The notes beneath the pieces are model-generated. The model was given only the letters and a program-made list of their open reading frames with translations, ran no database searches and had not been told where the DNA came from. Below, piece after piece: positions 1 to 24,855 of a stretch of 64,000 nt of DNA; within the stretch, counting starts at the first letter, position 1; each line of letters starts with the position of its first letter. Position numbers and translations under genes: made by a program. Origin of the DNA: Thermodesulfobacteriota bacterium (GTDB taxonomy: Bacteria > Desulfobacterota_D > UBA1144); contig JAURPH010000008.1 in assembly GCA_030835345.1 (NCBI GenBank), positions 1-64,000 on the forward strand. The letters are read 5' to 3'.

Positions 1-344
1 ATCACCAGGTTACTTATCTTGGTTCTGAGTTACCACCACAGTTCGGAAACGGACACAGATTCCAATTGGACCCAAGTTCAATTAGAACTGCTACTGGTGA
101 TGACATGAGATCATGGTACATGGCTGGAACTCCTTTTGACTTCATGGGAGGTTCATTAGGAGATGTTAAAGTACATGGATTAATTTCATTTACATTTAAC
201 TTAATCATTCCACCAGCTTCAATTGTATGGGAAAAAAGAGTTGAAAGAAACGATGATGATGTTGCAAAACATCTATTGTTCTCAACTCCTTACAAATATA
301 CAATGAGACACAGATTCTTAACACCTTACTATCCAGGTGCCTAA
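1..344 (+). CDS. Acetoacetate decarboxylase family protein, 3' part only (5' end outside window)
   Basis: The window opens inside this gene. The reading frame is open from base 3 to the TAA at 342-344, and the listed ORF start at 66 is only an in-frame TTG. The visible 113 residues match the C-terminal third of the ADC-family protein encoded at 21019-21993 on the other strand, with four residue differences by eye. The catalytic Lys-Lys region would lie left of the window. Neighbours are a strong terminator downstream and then an aldehyde dehydrogenase. ADC-family (PF06314) enzymes decarboxylate acetoacetate or carry out related Schiff-base chemistry; the substrate here is unknown. Confidence 0.85.
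   Translation, partial: HQVTYLGSELPPQFGNGHRFQLDPSSIRTATGDDMRSWYMAGTPFDFMGGSLGDVKVHGLISFTFNLIIPPASIVWEKRVERNDDDVAKHLLFSTPYKYTMRHRFLTPYYPGA
1..344. repeat. Inverted repeat, left copy (pairs with 21019-21362)
   Basis: Read on the plus strand, these 344 bases align without gaps to the reverse complement of 21019-21362. I count about 16 mismatches, falling in a few patches (near 104-110, 124-160, 250-260 and the stop codon), with runs of more than 80 identical bases between them. Similarity stops at the stop codon (TAA here, TAG in the other copy). The repeat continues left of the window for an unknown distance. Confidence 0.85.
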
Positions 345-18913: not shown

Positions 18914-20455
18914 ATGAGTAATTTTGTAAAAATATTTGATACAACTCTTCGAGATGGTGAACAAGCTCCTGGTTGTAGCATGAATGAAGAAGAGAAAATT
19001 AAAGTTGCACTACAGCTTGAAAAGCTCGGGGTGAACATAATAGAAGCGGGCTTCCCAATTGCTTCAGAAGGTGACTTTAATTCTGTTAAAATGATAGCAG
19101 ATCAAATTAAAGATTGTGAAGTTGCAGGACTTAGTAGGGCAAATATTAAAGATATAGATAGAGCATGGGAGGCAGTTAAGAAAGCCAAAAATCCCAGGAT
19201 TCATACTTTTATTGCCACTTCAGACATTCATTTGAAGTATAAACTTAAAAAAACCCAAGATGAAGTTTTAGACATAATTCAGAAGTCAGTAGCTCATGCA
19301 GCCAAATACACCTCCAATGTTGAATTTTCATGCGAAGATGCAACTAGGTCTAGCGTAGATTTTTTGTGTAAATCAATTTCTATAGCTATAAAAGCCGGAG
19401 CAACTACAATAAACATACCAGATACTGTTGGATATACGGTTCCATCTGAGTTCTCAAGAATGATAAGAGAAATAAAAAATGGTGTGGATGATATTGAAAA
19501 GACGACAATTAGTGTCCATTGTCATAACGATTTGGGACTAGCAGTAGCTAATTCATTAGCAGCTATTCATGAGGGAGCAAGACAAGTTGAATGCACAATT
19601 AATGGTTTAGGAGAAAGGGCTGGTAATGCCTCTTTGGAAGAAATAGTAATGGCATTGAAAGTAAGAAATGATTTAAACCCATTTGAAACCAAGGTTGACT
19701 CTAAACAAATTTATGCCTCAAGCAAGTTAGTTAGTAGTGTAACAGGAGTCAATGTTCAACCTAATAAGGCGATTGTTGGTGCAAATGCCTTTGCTCATGA
19801 AGCTGGTATTCATCAAGATGGAGTTTTAAAGCAAAGAGATACATATGAAATTATGGAAGCATCCGAGGTAGGTATACCTTCAAACTATATCGTTTTAGGA
19901 AAACATTCAGGAAGGCATGCTTTTAAGGACAGATTGACTGAGTTTGGTTATAAATTAGATGATGAAAAGTTTGAAATTGCATTCATAAAATTTAAGGAGT
20001 TATGTGATAAGAAGAAGTATGTTTTTGATGAGGATATTGAAGCGCTTATTAATGAAGAGTTCGTAAGATCTGGTGATTATTATAAGCTTGTTTCCCTAAG
20101 TTGTTCATCAGGAACTAAAAATGATCCTTCAGCTGAGCTAACTCTGATGGCAAATGAAGAGCCTATAACTATCTCGGAAAGCGGTGACGGCCCCATAGAT
20201 TCGGTTTTTAGAGCAATATGTAAAGCTGTAGGAGTAGAACCAAAACTTGATTCATACAATGTAGCATCTGTGACAGGAGGAATGGACGCACAAGCTGAGG
20301 TTTCTGTCATAATAAAAGATGATGGTTTTACTGCTAGAGGAAAAGGTGCTAGTACTGATGTTATAGTGGCAAGTGCAAAAGCCTTTATTAATGCACTTAA
20401 TAACTTAAGATGGCGAAAATTGCATCCAAAAATTGCTTCCCCTAAAGGAATTTAA
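18914..20455 (+). CDS. leuA: 2-isopropylmalate synthase
   Basis: A 513-residue LeuA, the first committed enzyme of leucine synthesis (acetyl-CoA plus 2-oxoisovalerate). The HMGL-like TIM barrel begins FDTTLRDGEQAPGCSMN and contains the metal-binding HCHNDLGLAVANS and GLGERAGNASLEE. The second half holds the regulatory LeuA dimer domain (SVTGGMDAQAEVSVII), so leucine feedback is likely. Full length. No other leu genes follow; downstream is a short RNA unit. Confidence 0.96.
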   Translation: MSNFVKIFDTTLRDGEQAPGCSMNEEEKIKVALQLEKLGVNIIEAGFPIASEGDFNSVKMIADQIKDCEVAGLSRANIKDIDRAWEAVKKAKNPRIHTFIATSDIHLKYKLKKTQDEVLDIIQKSVAHAAKYTSNVEFSCEDATRSSVDFLCKSISIAIKAGATTINIPDTVGYTVPSEFSRMIREIKNGVDDIEKTTISVHCHNDLGLAVANSLAAIHEGARQVECTINGLGERAGNASLEEIVMALKVRNDLNPFETKVDSKQIYASSKLVSSVTGVNVQPNKAIVGANAFAHEAGIHQDGVLKQRDTYEIMEASEVGIPSNYIVLGKHSGRHAFKDRLTEFGYKLDDEKFEIAFIKFKELCDKKKYVFDEDIEALINEEFVRSGDYYKLVSLSCSSGTKNDPSAELTLMANEEPITISESGDGPIDSVFRAICKAVGVEPKLDSYNVASVTGGMDAQAEVSVIIKDDGFTARGKGASTDVIVASAKAFINALNNLRWRKLHPKIASPKGI

Positions 20456-20472: not shown

Positions 20473-20502
20473 TTGAAATTGAAATGGTGGTTATGCTACA
20501 AT
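20473..20502 (+). promoter_or_regulatory. Predicted promoter of the first small RNA
   Basis: TTGAAA (20473-20478), an 18-nt spacer and TACAAT (20497-20502), placed just after the leuA stop. Initiation is expected near 20509-20510. Confidence 0.55.
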
Positions 20503-20508
20503 TTTATA

Positions 20509-20581
20509 AGCGTAGGTAGGTGATGGTTAAACATCCCCGTAACACTCTGAGAGGTATTTAGCGGTACCTCTCTTTTTTTTT
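20509..20581 (+). ncRNA. Candidate small RNA 1, about 70 nt, ending in a strong terminator
   Basis: Between a promoter-like element and a perfect terminator lies about 70 nt with no start codon and ORF of any length. The 5' part begins GCGTAGGTAGGTGATGG and may fold through GATG/CATC. The 3' hairpin has the 8-bp stem GAGAGGTA / TACCTCTC around the loop TTTAGCGG, followed by nine T residues. The same loop core TTAGCGG recurs in small RNA 2. Alternatives are a leuA 3'-UTR fragment or simply the leuA terminator; the separate promoter argues for an independent RNA. I do not recognise a known family. Confidence 0.5.
20549..20581 (+). terminator. Terminator of leuA and of small RNA 1
   Basis: Perfect 8-bp stem (20549-20556 with 20565-20572), 8-nt loop TTTAGCGG, then T9. 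The T tract touches the stop codon of the convergent small gene. Confidence 0.85.
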
Positions 20582-20828
20582 ATAATCCCTCTATTTTTTC
20601 CCCACAAATTGTACATTTTATGGGTAATTTATCAGTTTCAATCCACTGATCACCTTTTTCTTTAATATTATCTTTGTAATATTGGTATTTTTCTTCTTTA
20701 ACTCTTTTAGAATACTCCAACTCCCAACTTTGGTCTTTAATTCGGTCTTTAAAATATTCTTCTTTTTTGATGCTTATATAAATTTTTTTATCAGAACATT
20801 TACATTTAGTGATGATAATAGGAGACAT
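20580..20828 (-). CDS. Small lysine/glutamate-rich protein with two cysteine pairs (putative zinc ribbon)
   Basis: An 82-residue ORF that I do not recognise. It has a CKC pair near the N terminus (ITKCKCSDKKIY) and a CTIC pair near the C terminus (LPIKCTICGEKIEG), the spacing of a split zinc ribbon, with a charged, probably helical middle rich in Lys, Glu and Tyr. It is flanked on both sides by the two candidate small RNAs and read against them. No good ribosome site precedes the ATG. Codon use is like that of the neighbouring genes, so it is probably real. Confidence 0.55.
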   Translation of the reverse strand: MSPIIITKCKCSDKKIYISIKKEEYFKDRIKDQSWELEYSKRVKEEKYQYYKDNIKEKGDQWIETDKLPIKCTICGEKIEGL

Positions 20829-20869
20829 ACTTTGATAATAATCAATTAATTTAAACTTATAAAGAACTA

Positions 20870-20899
20870 TTGATTTTTTTTAACTATAAAGGCTATTAT
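20870..20899 (+). promoter_or_regulatory. Predicted promoter of the second small RNA
   Basis: TTGATT (20870-20875), an 18-nt spacer and TATTAT (20894-20899). Initiation is expected near 20906, the base of the long stem that follows. Confidence 0.6.
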
Positions 20900-20905
20900 G
20901 GATTT

Positions 20906-21013
20906 AGGTGGAAGGTGGGACTACTTAGCGGATAGTCACGTCAACGGCCTTCCACCCTAAAACACTAATTTTCATTAAAGGGCAACCAGTCCGAAGACTG
21001 GTTGCTTTTTTTT
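20906..21013 (+). ncRNA. Candidate small RNA 2, about 108 nt, two-domain structure
   Basis: This non-coding unit starts at a good promoter and ends at a perfect terminator. The 5' domain closes with TTTAGGTGGAAGG (20903-20915) paired to CCTTCCA-C-CCTAAA (20948-20961, one bulged C), and it encloses a smaller hairpin GACTA / TAGTC with the loop CTTAGCGGA. A single-stranded linker (AACACTAATTTTCATT) follows, then the terminator. GC content is clearly above the surrounding intergenic DNA. It does not carry the SRP RNA or tmRNA signatures, and I do not recognise a riboswitch class. It lies tail to tail with the ADC gene at 21019. Confidence 0.65.
20982..21013 (+). terminator. Terminator of small RNA 2
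   Basis: Perfect 10-bp stem GCAACCAGTC / GACTGGTTGC with a CGAA tetraloop, then eight T residues. The T tract is on the plus strand only, so it serves the small RNA rather than the convergent ADC gene. Confidence 0.9.
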
Positions 21014-21018
21014 ATATT

Positions 21019-21362
21019 CTAAGCACCTGGATAGTAAGGTGTTAAGAATCTGTGTCTCATTGTATATTTGTAAGGAGTTGAGAACAATAGATGTTTTGCA
21101 ACATCATCGTCACTTCTTTCAACTCTTTTTTCCCATACAATTGAAGCTGGTGGAATGATTAAGTTAAATGTAAATGAAATTAATCCATGTACTTTAACAT
21201 CACCAAGTAATCCACCCATGAAGTCAAATGGTGAACCAGCCATGTACCATGATCTGATGTCATCACCAGTAGCAGTTCTAATTGAACTTGGGTCCAATTG
21301 GAATCTGTGTCCGTTTCCGAACTGTGGTGGTAACTCAGAACCAAGATAAGTAACCTGGTGAT
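21019..21362. repeat. Inverted repeat, right copy (pairs with 1-344)
   Basis: Reverse-complement counterpart of bases 1-344; see that entry for the comparison. The match reaches at least the left window edge, so the repeat is longer than can be measured here. Confidence 0.85.
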
Positions 21363-21993
21363 CACTATAAGCTACACTTGGGTGTGTAGTGATTCTGTAG
21401 TTTAATCTTCCCCAGTCTGTTTTACCAAAGAATGTTGGTTTAACAGCTACAGGTTTGTCTGAATAACGACCGTTTGCTGAGTGAAGAACATAACCTCTTC
21501 TTTCCATTAAATGGTTGAAGTAGTTATCGTTTGTTCCGTGCTCAAATCCTGCAATGTAAGCAGCTTTTTTCGGGAAACCGAAAGGCTCTCTACCTGCGAA
21601 AATTGGTGAGTCGTTAGATAGATACATAATTGGGTAGTATCCACCTTTCCAAACTTGTCCGTCAGATCCTTTTACAGTAGCTGATGATGTAACACCAAAC
21701 TCCATGTAAGGTCCTAACATTGTATTTCTGTGTATAACATACCAGAACTCAAGAATATTATCATGAAGTTCTACTGGCTCAGGGTGGAATGCTTTTAAAG
21801 CAGCATCATCTGCTTCAACAACATATGCCATCCAACGGCTTTCTGTGTATGTTAGTGGTACTATGTCATAGTCGAAGACTGGATCCGCAACACCCTGAGA
21901 GATAATATGAATTCTATCTCTATCAAGTGGTAATGGTGGAACTTCACCTTCTTCTAACCATGGATAGCTGTATTCGTTTGCTTGTTTAGCCAT
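21019..21993 (-). CDS. Acetoacetate decarboxylase family protein (copy B)
   Basis: A 324-residue ADC-family protein, longer than classical acetoacetate decarboxylase (about 250). The Schiff-base region GREPFGFPKKAAYI places the Lys-Lys pair at residues 142-143, and MLGPYMEFG holds the partner acidic residue near 98, both as in the family. Related enzymes either release CO2 from beta-keto acids or catalyse aldol and dehydration chemistry, so the substrate is open. AAGGAG precedes the ATG, and codons ending in C are frequent, pointing to high expression. It follows its paralogue by 38 nt in one operon, and its 3' third is duplicated at 1-344. Confidence 0.88.
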   Translation of the reverse strand: MAKQANEYSYPWLEEGEVPPLPLDRDRIHIISQGVADPVFDYDIVPLTYTESRWMAYVVEADDAALKAFHPEPVELHDNILEFWYVIHRNTMLGPYMEFGVTSSATVKGSDGQVWKGGYYPIMYLSNDSPIFAGREPFGFPKKAAYIAGFEHGTNDNYFNHLMERRGYVLHSANGRYSDKPVAVKPTFFGKTDWGRLNYRITTHPSVAYSDHQVTYLGSELPPQFGNGHRFQLDPSSIRTATGDDIRSWYMAGSPFDFMGGLLGDVKVHGLISFTFNLIIPPASIVWEKRVERSDDDVAKHLLFSTPYKYTMRHRFLTPYYPGA

Positions 21994-22031
21994 GTTTATT
22001 CTCCTTCAAAAAATTTTTGTATTTTTAATTC

Positions 22032-23003
22032 CTATGCACCTTGGTGAATTGGGAATTGCTGTCTTAAACCATACTGATATGGTGTTGCATATCCTCTGTA
22101 AGAAGCTGGTCTTTCATATGTTTCTGACCAGATAACTTCTGCTGGAGGAATAACAAGATCAAATGTGAATGAAATCAATCCTTTTACTTCATCGATTTTC
22201 AATTCAGCACCCATGTTATCAAATGGAGTTGCCTGTTGGAACCAGTCGCAAGCATCGCTTGAAGCTGTTCTAGTTAACTCGTTTTTGATTTGGAATCTGT
22301 GTCCTTCTACATTAAATGCAGGTGGAAGAACAGATGGTAAATATGTACATTGCCATTCTGAACTTGCAACATCAGGACGTGTGATAACCTTCATGTTTAA
22401 TCTTCCCCAATCAGTTTGTCCGTAGAAAGCTGGAGGAGTTACAGGGGCGTCATCATACTTACCTTGTGAAGCATGCATTAGGTAACCATTTCTTGACATT
22501 GAGAATGCAAAGAAATCGTCTCCTTTTTCGCCGCCATGCTCAGTTGCTCTAATGTAAGCCATTTTTTTAGGGAATCCTAAAACACGACCTGCATCAACAG
22601 CTGAATCTTGTGTTAAATACATATATGGGTAGTATCCACCCTTCCATGTATTACCTTTTGAGTCTGTATGTGTAGCAGCTACTGTTACACCCATCTCAAG
22701 ATATGGACCTAGCATTGTATTGTTATGTTGTACATACCAATATTCTACTAAATCACCGTTTTCGCCTTCATATACTGATAAAGGTGGGTTTGGACATAGT
22801 CTTTGTAGACAATCCATTGGGCTTTTAAGAATAAAAGCTGACCATCTTGAATCTGTATAAGTTAAAGGAAGAACATCAATATCCCATAGAGGATCGGAAG
22901 GGTTTCCGATAATCCATGACTTAATGTCTCTTTCAACTGGCGGTGCTGGAATCTCGTCTGTCAAGTTCCAGTACTTTGTGTCAACGTTTAAGTGACTTGG
23001 CAT
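22032..23003 (-). CDS. Acetoacetate decarboxylase family protein (diverged paralogue)
   Basis: A 323-residue paralogue of the downstream gene, clearly diverged but collinear: DIDVLPLTYTDSRW, TMLGPYLEMGVTVAA, TWKGGYYPYMYLTQDS and the catalytic-type VLGFPKKMAYI with Lys-Lys at 146-147. I set the start at 23003 (MPSHLN) because AAGGAGG lies 9 nt upstream; the longer ORF from 23066 would run through the ribosome site. First gene of a two-gene operon. Two similar subunits side by side suggest either a hetero-oligomer or two substrate ranges. The leader carries a site complementary to the loops of the small RNAs. Confidence 0.88.
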   Translation of the reverse strand: MPSHLNVDTKYWNLTDEIPAPPVERDIKSWIIGNPSDPLWDIDVLPLTYTDSRWSAFILKSPMDCLQRLCPNPPLSVYEGENGDLVEYWYVQHNNTMLGPYLEMGVTVAATHTDSKGNTWKGGYYPYMYLTQDSAVDAGRVLGFPKKMAYIRATEHGGEKGDDFFAFSMSRNGYLMHASQGKYDDAPVTPPAFYGQTDWGRLNMKVITRPDVASSEWQCTYLPSVLPPAFNVEGHRFQIKNELTRTASSDACDWFQQATPFDNMGAELKIDEVKGLISFTFDLVIPPAEVIWSETYERPASYRGYATPYQYGLRQQFPIHQGA

Positions 23004-23028
23004 AATAATTTGCCTCCTTATAAATAAA

Positions 23029-23036
23029 TTAGCGGA
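23029..23036 (-). promoter_or_regulatory. Possible small-RNA pairing site in the ADC operon leader
   Basis: On the mRNA strand the leader reads TCCGCTAA, fully complementary to TTAGCGGA in the loop of small RNA 2, and over seven bases to the loop of small RNA 1. It lies 11 nt upstream of the Shine-Dalgarno and close to the predicted 5' end of the message. Interaction is inferred only from complementarity. Confidence 0.35.
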
Positions 23037-23049
23037 AGTAGGTTTGTAA

Positions 23050-23077
23050 AATGTAACTAGTATCAAAAAAATTACAA
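23050..23077 (-). promoter_or_regulatory. Predicted promoter of the ADC-family operon
   Basis: On the minus strand TTGTAA (23072-23077), a 16-nt spacer and TACATT (23050-23055). Initiation near 23043 would give a leader of about 40 nt containing CCGCTAA and then AAGGAGG. Confidence 0.45.
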
Positions 23078-23118: not shown

Positions 23119-24855
23119 ATGAAAGGGATAGAAATTTTCTTTAAAACACTTGAAAAAGAGGGTGTTGAATACATATTTTCACCTCCAAATAGCTTTGGAA
23201 AAAAAGTTGATAAGCTTTTTTCAGATAAATTTAGTAAATCTAAGATGAAGAAAATAATTTCTGGGAATGAGCAAGGTGCTAGCCATATGGCAGATGGTTA
23301 TGCTAGAACTACTGGAAAACCAGGAATAGTTGTTTGTGATTCTGATACGAGTGGTACAAATACAATTACAGGTTTGCAGACTGCAAATATGGATTCTGCA
23401 CCAATGGTAGTTTTTATATGCCACTTTAGTGAAAATGAAAATTTATCTAACATATTTGATCAAATAGATCATATTGGAATTTCAAGATCTACAACTAAGC
23501 ATAATTTTTTATGTGAAAAAGTGGAAGACTTATCTAGAGTTTTAAGAGAAGCACTTTATCTTTCAACTACTGGAAGACCAGGAACAATTTTAGTTGACAT
23601 TCCAAAGCAAGTTTTAGATTCTGAAACAAAGTTTACATTCCCCACAATAAAAAAAGTAAGTGGTTACAAAATTCCTAAAGAAGCAAAATCTGTTGATATT
23701 AAAAAAGCAGCGAAATTAATAATGAATTCAAAAAGACCCATAGTTTTTGGTGGCGGTGGGATAATAATATCTGAAGCCACTGAAGCATTAAGAAAATTCG
23801 CAAATCGTCTCAAAATCCCTGTTACTTTGACACTAATGGGCCTAGGAGGATACCCTCCTGATGATCCGATGAGGGTAAGTTGGATAGGCATGCACGGTTC
23901 TTATTTTGCCAATATGGCCGTTCATAATAGTGACCTTGTAATATCTATTGGTGCCAGATTTGATGACAGGTCAACTGGAGGGGTTTTTGAAAAATTTGCT
24001 CCAAATGCAAAAGTTATTCACATAGATATCGATCCTTCCACCATTAACAAAAATATCGTTGTTCATTGTCCAATTGTTGGAGATGCAAAGACTGTAATAA
24101 ATCAAATAAGCAAAGAAATTCCAATGTCATTTAAACCAAATACTGAAGATAGACTAGCCTGGTTTAATCAAATAAAAGATTGGGAAAATGAGAATCCTAC
24201 TGTAGCAAGGCAAAAAGGAAAAATGATTAAAACCAGTTACGCAATAGATTTAATTTCTAAAATTACTAAGGGTAAAGCTGTAGTTGTTACAGATGTAGGG
24301 CAGCATCAAATGTGGGTAGCCCAATATTATCAATTCGCGAATCCAAGGAATCAAATAACTTCAGGTGGTCTTGGGACAATGGGATTTGGTTTCCCTGCGG
24401 CAATTGGAGCAAAGCTTGGACGCCCTAATGATACAGTTCTTGCAATATGCGGAGATGGAAGTTTCCAGATGAATATGCAAGAATTTAGCACTGCTGTTGA
24501 GAATCAATTAGACTTAAAAATCATTTTAATAAATAACGGACACCATGGAATGGTTAGGCAGTGGCAAACCTTATTTTTTGATAAAAATTATTCATGTTGC
24601 AAGTTTGATTTAAACCCTGACTATGTAAAGATTGCTCAATCATACGGGGCAAAAGCCTTTAAAATTGATTCACCTAATGATTTGGAAGGATCTTTTAAGG
24701 AGGGATTGTCTACTAAAGGGGTAGTATTAATGGAAGTAGTTGTTGATCATACTGAGATGGTATACCCTATGTTAACTCCAGGAGGTACCATGGACGATAT
24801 GTTATTAAGTCCCGATGATCCAATACCTGATGGACCAGTCCCCGATATGTCTTAA
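23119..24855 (+). CDS. ilvB: Acetolactate synthase catalytic subunit-like ThDP enzyme
   Basis: A 578-residue thiamine-diphosphate enzyme. The ThDP/Mg motif ICGDGSFQMNMQEF, the AHAS-diagnostic NNGHHGMVRQWQ and the C-terminal MVYPMLTPGG all point to acetohydroxyacid synthase, which starts valine, leucine and isoleucine synthesis. The activating Glu is in GNEQGASHMADGYAR. The N terminus is odd: SPPNSFGKKVDKLFSD replaces the usual glycine-rich GxPGG segment, and CDSDTSGTNTITG replaces the TSGPG motif. No small regulatory subunit gene (ilvN/ilvH) follows. A different oxo-acid decarboxylation is therefore possible. The hexamer TACAAT ends 6 nt before the ATG, so the message may be leaderless. Confidence 0.85.
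   Translation: MKGIEIFFKTLEKEGVEYIFSPPNSFGKKVDKLFSDKFSKSKMKKIISGNEQGASHMADGYARTTGKPGIVVCDSDTSGTNTITGLQTANMDSAPMVVFICHFSENENLSNIFDQIDHIGISRSTTKHNFLCEKVEDLSRVLREALYLSTTGRPGTILVDIPKQVLDSETKFTFPTIKKVSGYKIPKEAKSVDIKKAAKLIMNSKRPIVFGGGGIIISEATEALRKFANRLKIPVTLTLMGLGGYPPDDPMRVSWIGMHGSYFANMAVHNSDLVISIGARFDDRSTGGVFEKFAPNAKVIHIDIDPSTINKNIVVHCPIVGDAKTVINQISKEIPMSFKPNTEDRLAWFNQIKDWENENPTVARQKGKMIKTSYAIDLISKITKGKAVVVTDVGQHQMWVAQYYQFANPRNQITSGGLGTMGFGFPAAIGAKLGRPNDTVLAICGDGSFQMNMQEFSTAVENQLDLKIILINNGHHGMVRQWQTLFFDKNYSCCKFDLNPDYVKIAQSYGAKAFKIDSPNDLEGSFKEGLSTKGVVLMEVVVDHTEMVYPMLTPGGTMDDMLLSPDDPIPDGPVPDMS

Follow-up and report, generated by a model that had tools for sequence, protein, structure and literature searches.

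Gene order at the locus

The window is a 64,000-nt contig stretch from a streamlined marine Candidatus Dadabacteria of the UBA1144 clade, whose own genome (0.97 Mb, 94% complete) is labelled G000. The gene order starts with leuA, which ends at 20455 on the plus strand and lies upstream of two candidate small RNA genes on the same strand, sRNA1 (20508-20577) and sRNA2 (about 20904-21013). Between these two is a minus strand open reading frame of 82 aa (20580-20828) that displays CxC and CxxC motifs and is zinc-ribbon-like; no Pfam match was found for it. The open reading frame is present at the same place in relatives, with its 3′ end abutting the sRNA1 T run and its start facing sRNA2. Convergent with sRNA2 is a minus strand operon of two acetoacetate-decarboxylase-like (ADC) genes, both with homology to PF06314: ADC1-A (21019-21993, E = 3.8e-19), which is the second gene of the operon, and ADC2-A (22032-23003, E = 1.8e-18), the predicted target gene. 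The next gene, on the plus strand at 23119, encodes a thiamine-pyrophosphate enzyme.

The ADC2-ADC1 operon of the window is here termed ADC-A, and ADC-B denotes a paralogous operon that is located elsewhere in relatives. The 3′ end of ADC-B (1-344, plus strand) forms the left edge of the window; the two ADC copies (1-344, plus strand, and 21019-23003, minus strand) are in opposite orientation and about 20 kb apart. In several relatives contigs end within ADC, and in G007 an ADC-B type leader is found beside sRNA2. The arrangement of ADC across contigs suggests recombination between copies, inversion of the segment, or misassembly.

The sRNA1 unit

The original prediction was that two plus strand non-coding units are present here, each with a promoter-like element and a perfect terminator stem, and that both carry the loop sequence TTAGCGG. 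Both units are found with these elements, and the count of two stem-plus-T-run units compares with 0.5 expected in shuffled sequences. Judged by sequence, each sRNA appears to form a transcription unit by itself, with a promoter and a terminator of its own. The sRNA1 promoter, TTGAAA-18-TACAAT with an extended -10 TG, is at 20473-20502 (plus strand); in an alignment of 12 genomes the -35 and the extended -10 elements are kept and the flanks are variable. The predicted transcript of about 68 nt ends in an intrinsic terminator, a hairpin followed by a T run (20549-20577), with the stem at 20549-20572 and the loop TTTAGCGG at 20557-20564. Folding of sRNA1 compared with shuffled sequence gives z = -2.6. 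The heptamer TTAGCGG is at 20558-20564, on the terminator hairpin loop as had been proposed, and again at 20925-20931 in sRNA2.

A DNA search and a covariance model (R1) show sRNA1 and its promoter to be conserved in 12 of the 14 family genomes, and the model found it in none of the 44 other genomes of the class. In G006 and G013, the two family genomes without sRNA1, the assemblies are also missing the leuA locus that would flank it. Within the transcript, the 5′ end AAGCGUAGGUAGG (20508-20520), whose last bases also enter stem 1, has a mean column identity of 97%. In the terminator, all 9 columns of the 5′ stem arm are invariant as opposed to only 3 of the 8 loop columns, and the loop appears between species as UUUAGCGG, UUUAGCGA, UUUAGCAG, CUUAGCAG, CUUUUGUAG and CUUUGCGG; thus the terminator loop is not the conserved part of sRNA1. 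This follows from the yardstick set with the original prediction, by which a functional loop should drift less than its flanks. The seed that is conserved in the alignment is the 5′ end of the RNA, and not the drifting loop.

A coding function for sRNA1 was also considered. A 12-codon frame with an AUG at 20523 (MVKHPRNTLRGI) is not kept in relatives: in the alignment, read by eye, it is frameshifted in G001 and G004 and has a stop after 5 codons in genus g2. A short coding RNA was thus rejected. The middle of sRNA1 (20536-20549, plus strand) displays a conserved single-stranded sequence, CCCCGUAACACUCU, that could be a second seed. With this sequence as query, the best ortholog pair is a non-ADC gene, G000 C7:54087-55430, with ranks 9 and 4 in two genomes.

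The sRNA2 unit

The sRNA2 promoter, TTGATT-18-TATTAT, is at 20870-20899 (plus strand). It is kept between genera, with TTGATT, a spacing of 17-18 nt, and TAttAT or a close match in g1, g4 and g2 genomes. The transcript starts at about 20904 and consists of a hairpin domain (20907-20956), a tail (20957-20986) and, in G000, a terminator (20977-21013) formed by a 15-pair stem (20977-21010) followed by T8, all on the plus strand. With the terminator included, folding compared with shuffled sequence gives z = -5.5. The outer stem of the hairpin pairs 20907-20915 with 20948-20956, and the apical loop CTTAGCGGA is at 20924-20932. In the fold first proposed, the heptamer formed the loop of an inner GACTA/TAGTC hairpin enclosed by a 13-bp stem. 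Its apical position holds, but the outer stem has 9 contiguous pairs, with an outward extension only past a bulged C, and the inner helix of the minimum-energy structure differs from GACTA/TAGTC. Under both folds UAGCGGAU is in the apical loop.

Comparison between genera shows that sRNA2 keeps its shape and its loop. In g1 and g4 the form is GGUGGAAGG..GACUA-CUUAGCGGA-UAGUC..CCUUCCACC, followed by the tail and a separate terminator, and in g2 it is GGGUGGAACC..CUUG-AGUUUAGCGA-CAAG..UUCCACCC, with the T run directly or closely after. The plus strand T run is kept in g1, g4 and g2 despite the differing hairpins and terminators. The inner stem is wholly replaced and the loop core UUAGCG is invariant in 8 genomes; thus the proposal that the loop is the functional part, which is unsupported for sRNA1, fits sRNA2, where the apical loop is probably the conserved, functional element.

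The distribution of sRNA2 follows that of ADC-A. It is present in all 9 genomes that have ADC-A beside the locus, and is readable whole in 8 of these and partially in the ninth, where the contig ends. In G003, G005 and G012, sRNA2 and ADC-A are jointly absent from the locus and the thiamine-pyrophosphate enzyme gene directly follows the 82-aa open reading frame.

Complementarity of the sRNA2 loop to the ADC-A leader

A likely explanation for the sequence shared by the two RNAs is its antisense match to the 5′ leader of ADC-A, a target that the original prediction missed: read as RNA, UUAGCGG is complementary to part of a site upstream of ADC2-A. The predicted target site of both sRNAs, CCUACUUCCGCUAA, is at 23029-23042 (minus strand), 11 nt upstream of the GGAGG at 23013-23017. 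A predicted ADC-A promoter, TTGTAA-16-TACATT (23050-23077, minus strand; consensus read by eye), shows the same arrangement in G002, G008 and G011, and would have the mRNA begin about 5-6 nt before the target site. This leader target probably explains the presence of AGCG in both RNAs.

The leader element is CUACUUCCGCUAA in G000, CCUACCAUCCGCUAA in G011 and CUACCUGUCGCUAAA in G002 and G008, and the sRNA2 loops of the respective genomes are antisense to their own leader, UUAGCGGA with 8 pairs, UUAGCGGAU with 9 and UUUAGCGACA with 10. When seeds were ranked against positions -100 to +20 of every gene in the genome, the sRNA2 loop placed ADC2-A 2nd of about 1,066 genes in G000, and the loop of G002 itself placed it 1st of 1,084 genes in G002; it should be noted that seed lengths were the analyst's choice, and that the ADC leader was noticed by eye ahead of the ranking, which took in all genes. 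A longer query of the 21-nt stem-loop places ADC2-A only 112th in G000, because this query also scores its own stem bases. Whole-RNA duplex energies, which ignore internal structure, were uninformative and were set aside. In G000, TCCGCTAA, the 8-mer complement of the sRNA2 loop, occurs 16 times, and the single occurrence within 70 nt upstream of a start is that of ADC2-A, at -33; in G002, TGTCGCTAAA, which exactly complements the loop there, occurs 5 times, and again the only one within 70 nt upstream of a start is ADC2-A, at -33. The chance expectation per 70-nt leader is 6e-4 for the former and 2e-4 for the latter.

Two positions of the predicted duplex differ between genera in loop and leader alike, a G-C pair having become A-U and an A-U pair C-G, and one further pair has been gained. 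In 6 genomes the loop pairs with its native leader at -11.4 to -14.8 kcal/mol. A loop taken from another genus gives -7.8 to -8.3 kcal/mol, and with it the pair, otherwise within the best 0.05-0.6% of leaders, drops to 6-7%. Between sRNA2 and the mRNA of ADC-A, a distinct transcript, complementarity is thus conserved through compensating changes, with the reservation that the co-variation counts few independent events and in essence a single change, between g1/g4 and g2.

That the two RNAs are unconnected transcripts or terminators which share TTAGCGG by chance should be considered here. The heptamer is found 5 times in the window as opposed to 1.7 expected, so that it is weak evidence by itself, and the sRNA1 loop drifts. 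Nevertheless the conserved promoters, the genome-wide ranks obtained with two seeds and the compensating changes in loop and leader make a chance association very unlikely.

The main rival is a DNA-level explanation, in which CTACC-N-CGCTAA or its complement is an operator for a transcription factor near the starts of sRNA1, sRNA2 and the ADC operons, with no RNA pairing. In each of the four units the motif and the predicted start are no more than about 66 nt apart, and parallel change between genera would also be expected of an operator with shifting specificity. However, the sRNA and mRNA copies are always oppositely oriented, as pairing requires, in sRNA2 nothing outside the hairpin loop matches (except, in g2, the CA of the stem), and the motif is found anywhere from about +1 to +66 relative to the predicted start. 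The motif displays no palindrome and half of the bipartite sequence is missing in sRNA2. An operator thus appears unlikely, and regulatory pairing of sRNA1 and sRNA2 with the ADC leader, leaving aside the sign of the effect, is the probable reading of these sequences.

Pairing of the sRNA1 5′ end with both ADC leaders

The 5′ end of sRNA1 can pair with the ADC-A leader in two blocks, AGCG/CGCU and GGUAG/CUAC(C/U). With this end as seed, ADC2-A ranks 2nd of about 1,066 genes in G000 and 3rd of 1,084 in G002. Among 901 ortholog pairs ADC2 comes first, ADC2-A of G000 being matched there with ADC2-B of G002. The two-part pairing includes a G-U pair and is interrupted by small internal loops, and in single genomes similar scores are reached by other genes. 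The terminator loop was rejected as a seed, as it places ADC2-A just 16th in G000 and it drifts. Of 2158 leaders, those of ADC-B fall within the top 0.2-0.7% for the sRNA1 seed in five genomes and at 1.5% in G003; the sRNA2 loop has no match to ADC-B leaders. Complementarity between sRNA1 and ADC is conserved, and clear compensating changes are seen for sRNA2 and ADC-A alone. Because sRNA1 matches both leaders and sRNA2 matches ADC-A only, the data fit a division of labour in which an older sRNA1 would act on both ADC copies, and sRNA2 would have come with ADC-A and would act there alone.

Possible origin of sRNA2

The sRNA2 tail shows 89-93% identity over 28-29 nt to the ADC-B leaders of G001, G004, G007 and G009, in the section just before the Shine-Dalgarno sequence. 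In g2 the tail resembles the g2 ADC-B leader instead (GCAAAUUUCA). Thus sRNA2 may derive from the ADC-B leader or exchange sequence with it. A more specific origin is possible and is put forward tentatively: sRNA2 would be a reversed copy of the ADC-B leader beside ADC-A that was turned into a trans-acting RNA with an ADC-A-selective loop. If so, two operons with nearly identical proteins would be controlled separately, with the older sRNA1 controlling both, and a route from mRNA leader to new sRNA would be visible in a bacterium without known RNA chaperones.

The likeness of the tail to the ADC-B leader also raises the prospect that sRNA2 is mainly a sponge for sRNA1. A modest sRNA1 seed match in the tail is found in g4 genomes (best 1.8-7%), but there is none in the own genome or in g2, with ranks of 1026 and 1431 of 2156. 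The seed match is not conserved, and a sponge role is extremely improbable.

The ADC-B mRNA leader upstream of ADC2-B (L036, L038, L039, L047 and L049) opens with a hairpin, AACGGGGUG..CACC, of variable loop, whose role may be in mRNA stability or in cis-regulation.

Proposed mode of action

In the proposed mechanism, sRNA1 and sRNA2 would be two unrelated trans-acting base-pairing sRNAs that converge on one mRNA leader. The apical loop of sRNA2 would offer UUAGCGGA for pairing with UCCGCUAA, which is part of the 5′ leader of ADC-A, the operon next to it. The largely single-stranded 5′ seed of sRNA1, AGCG-UA-GGUAGG, would pair in that leader with CUAC(C/U)-N2/3-CGCU, and in the paralogous ADC-B leader with a related site. 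Since the two sRNAs overlap on CGCU, one mRNA could not hold both. The duplex would most likely hinder ribosome loading and lower ADC synthesis, through sRNA1 on both copies and through sRNA2 on ADC-A only. The conserved units, their complementarity and the co-variation are read from sequence; that the RNAs are transcribed and pair inside cells is inferred, as is the sign of the effect. A direct prediction of the pairing model is that a change of the sRNA2 loop from UUAGCGGA to UUAGCGAC would abolish the effect and that the matching change in the leader would restore it.

As to the sign of the effect, the predicted consequence for the Shine-Dalgarno sequence differs between genera. From initiation footprints, a duplex so near the ribosome-binding site most likely hinders loading. 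The target site ends 10-11 nt before GGAGG, and repression is favoured on this ground, with some confidence; activation or mRNA stabilization carries a lesser but substantial probability. In structure modeling with the site blocked, the predicted accessibility of the Shine-Dalgarno sequence rises from 0.23 to 0.58 in G000 and from 0.11 to 0.62 in G011, whereas in g2 leaders it goes from 0.14-0.16 to 0.11-0.20, i.e., without release. Activation by freeing the Shine-Dalgarno sequence was thus rejected as a general mode, being predicted in g1/g4 only. A sub-case of the pairing model, in which pairing is as described and the mRNA is activated or stabilized through Shine-Dalgarno release or through shielding of the 5′ end, cf. 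FasX-ska, draws on the release predicted in G000 and G011 and on the site being at the extreme 5′ end of the mRNA predicted for ADC-A. It is rather doubtful, given the g2 leaders, and given that in ADC-B about 50 nt separate the site from the predicted 5′ end, such that shielding would be possible for ADC-A only.

No Pfam match to Hfq was found in 21 Dadabacteria genomes and none to ProQ in 15, with positive controls found in known genomes for both proteins; CsrA was likewise found in none of 15 Dadabacteria genomes. With neither Hfq nor ProQ detected as encoded, the sRNAs were not assigned to the classes that depend on these proteins. A CsrA/RsmA-sequestering sRNA was rejected, as the loop GGA becomes GAC in g2 and CsrA was not found in the 15 genomes. 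Pairing that is kept by compensating changes, where Hfq, ProQ and CsrA are undetected, bears on how short duplexes between an sRNA and an mRNA can operate without the known chaperones.

Comparison with known small RNAs

The Rfam 15 scan gave no gathering-level match for either sRNA, and permissive thresholds gave none either; no tRNA or tmRNA was found. This agrees with the earlier view that no known RNA family matches, and with conservation in relatives it upholds the two as undescribed and genuine-looking non-coding units. The best sub-threshold match is STnc370 (RF02064), at 30 bits compared with a cut-off of 54. It is driven by the terminator, as the likeness to the 3′ end of sRNA2 is limited to the hairpin and T run of the terminator, and it represents a different family. 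In open-licence literature nothing relevant was found on small RNAs or acetoacetate decarboxylase in Dadabacteria, and neither topic comes up in a survey of marine Dadabacteria genomes (PMC8115339). Regulators of this kind are already known, but both sRNA families are undescribed and absent from Rfam 15. They add two families with a specific predicted mRNA target in an uncultured marine phylum with genomes of about 1 Mb, and the partial likeness of sRNA2 to a paralogous operon leader may show how new sRNAs arise.

Closest in arrangement are the sibling sRNAs NgncR_162/163 of Neisseria, an adjacent pair that is 78% identical and folds alike (PMC9973317). Both systems have two adjacent sRNA genes with shared metabolic mRNA targets and pairing in the 5′ region, the last two being predicted here. 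Unlike the Neisseria pair, sRNA1 and sRNA2 have no common overall sequence or fold; compared by eye, only the target-matching bases agree, and the high identity between copies that marks sibling sRNAs is not seen. FasX of Streptococcus pyogenes stabilizes ska mRNA (PMC4691137), and, like the pairing predicted here, that of FasX involves the 5′ end of its target; by contrast, the RNAs here are unrelated and the host belongs to a candidate phylum. In RNAIII of Staphylococcus aureus, which acts on spa and hla, loop-loop contacts are made within a large RNA (PMC4691137). The recognition of a target leader by an sRNA hairpin loop, predicted here, is common to both, but sRNA2 differs from RNAIII in that it would present a single loop, about 9 nt long, to a leader that is itself weakly structured.
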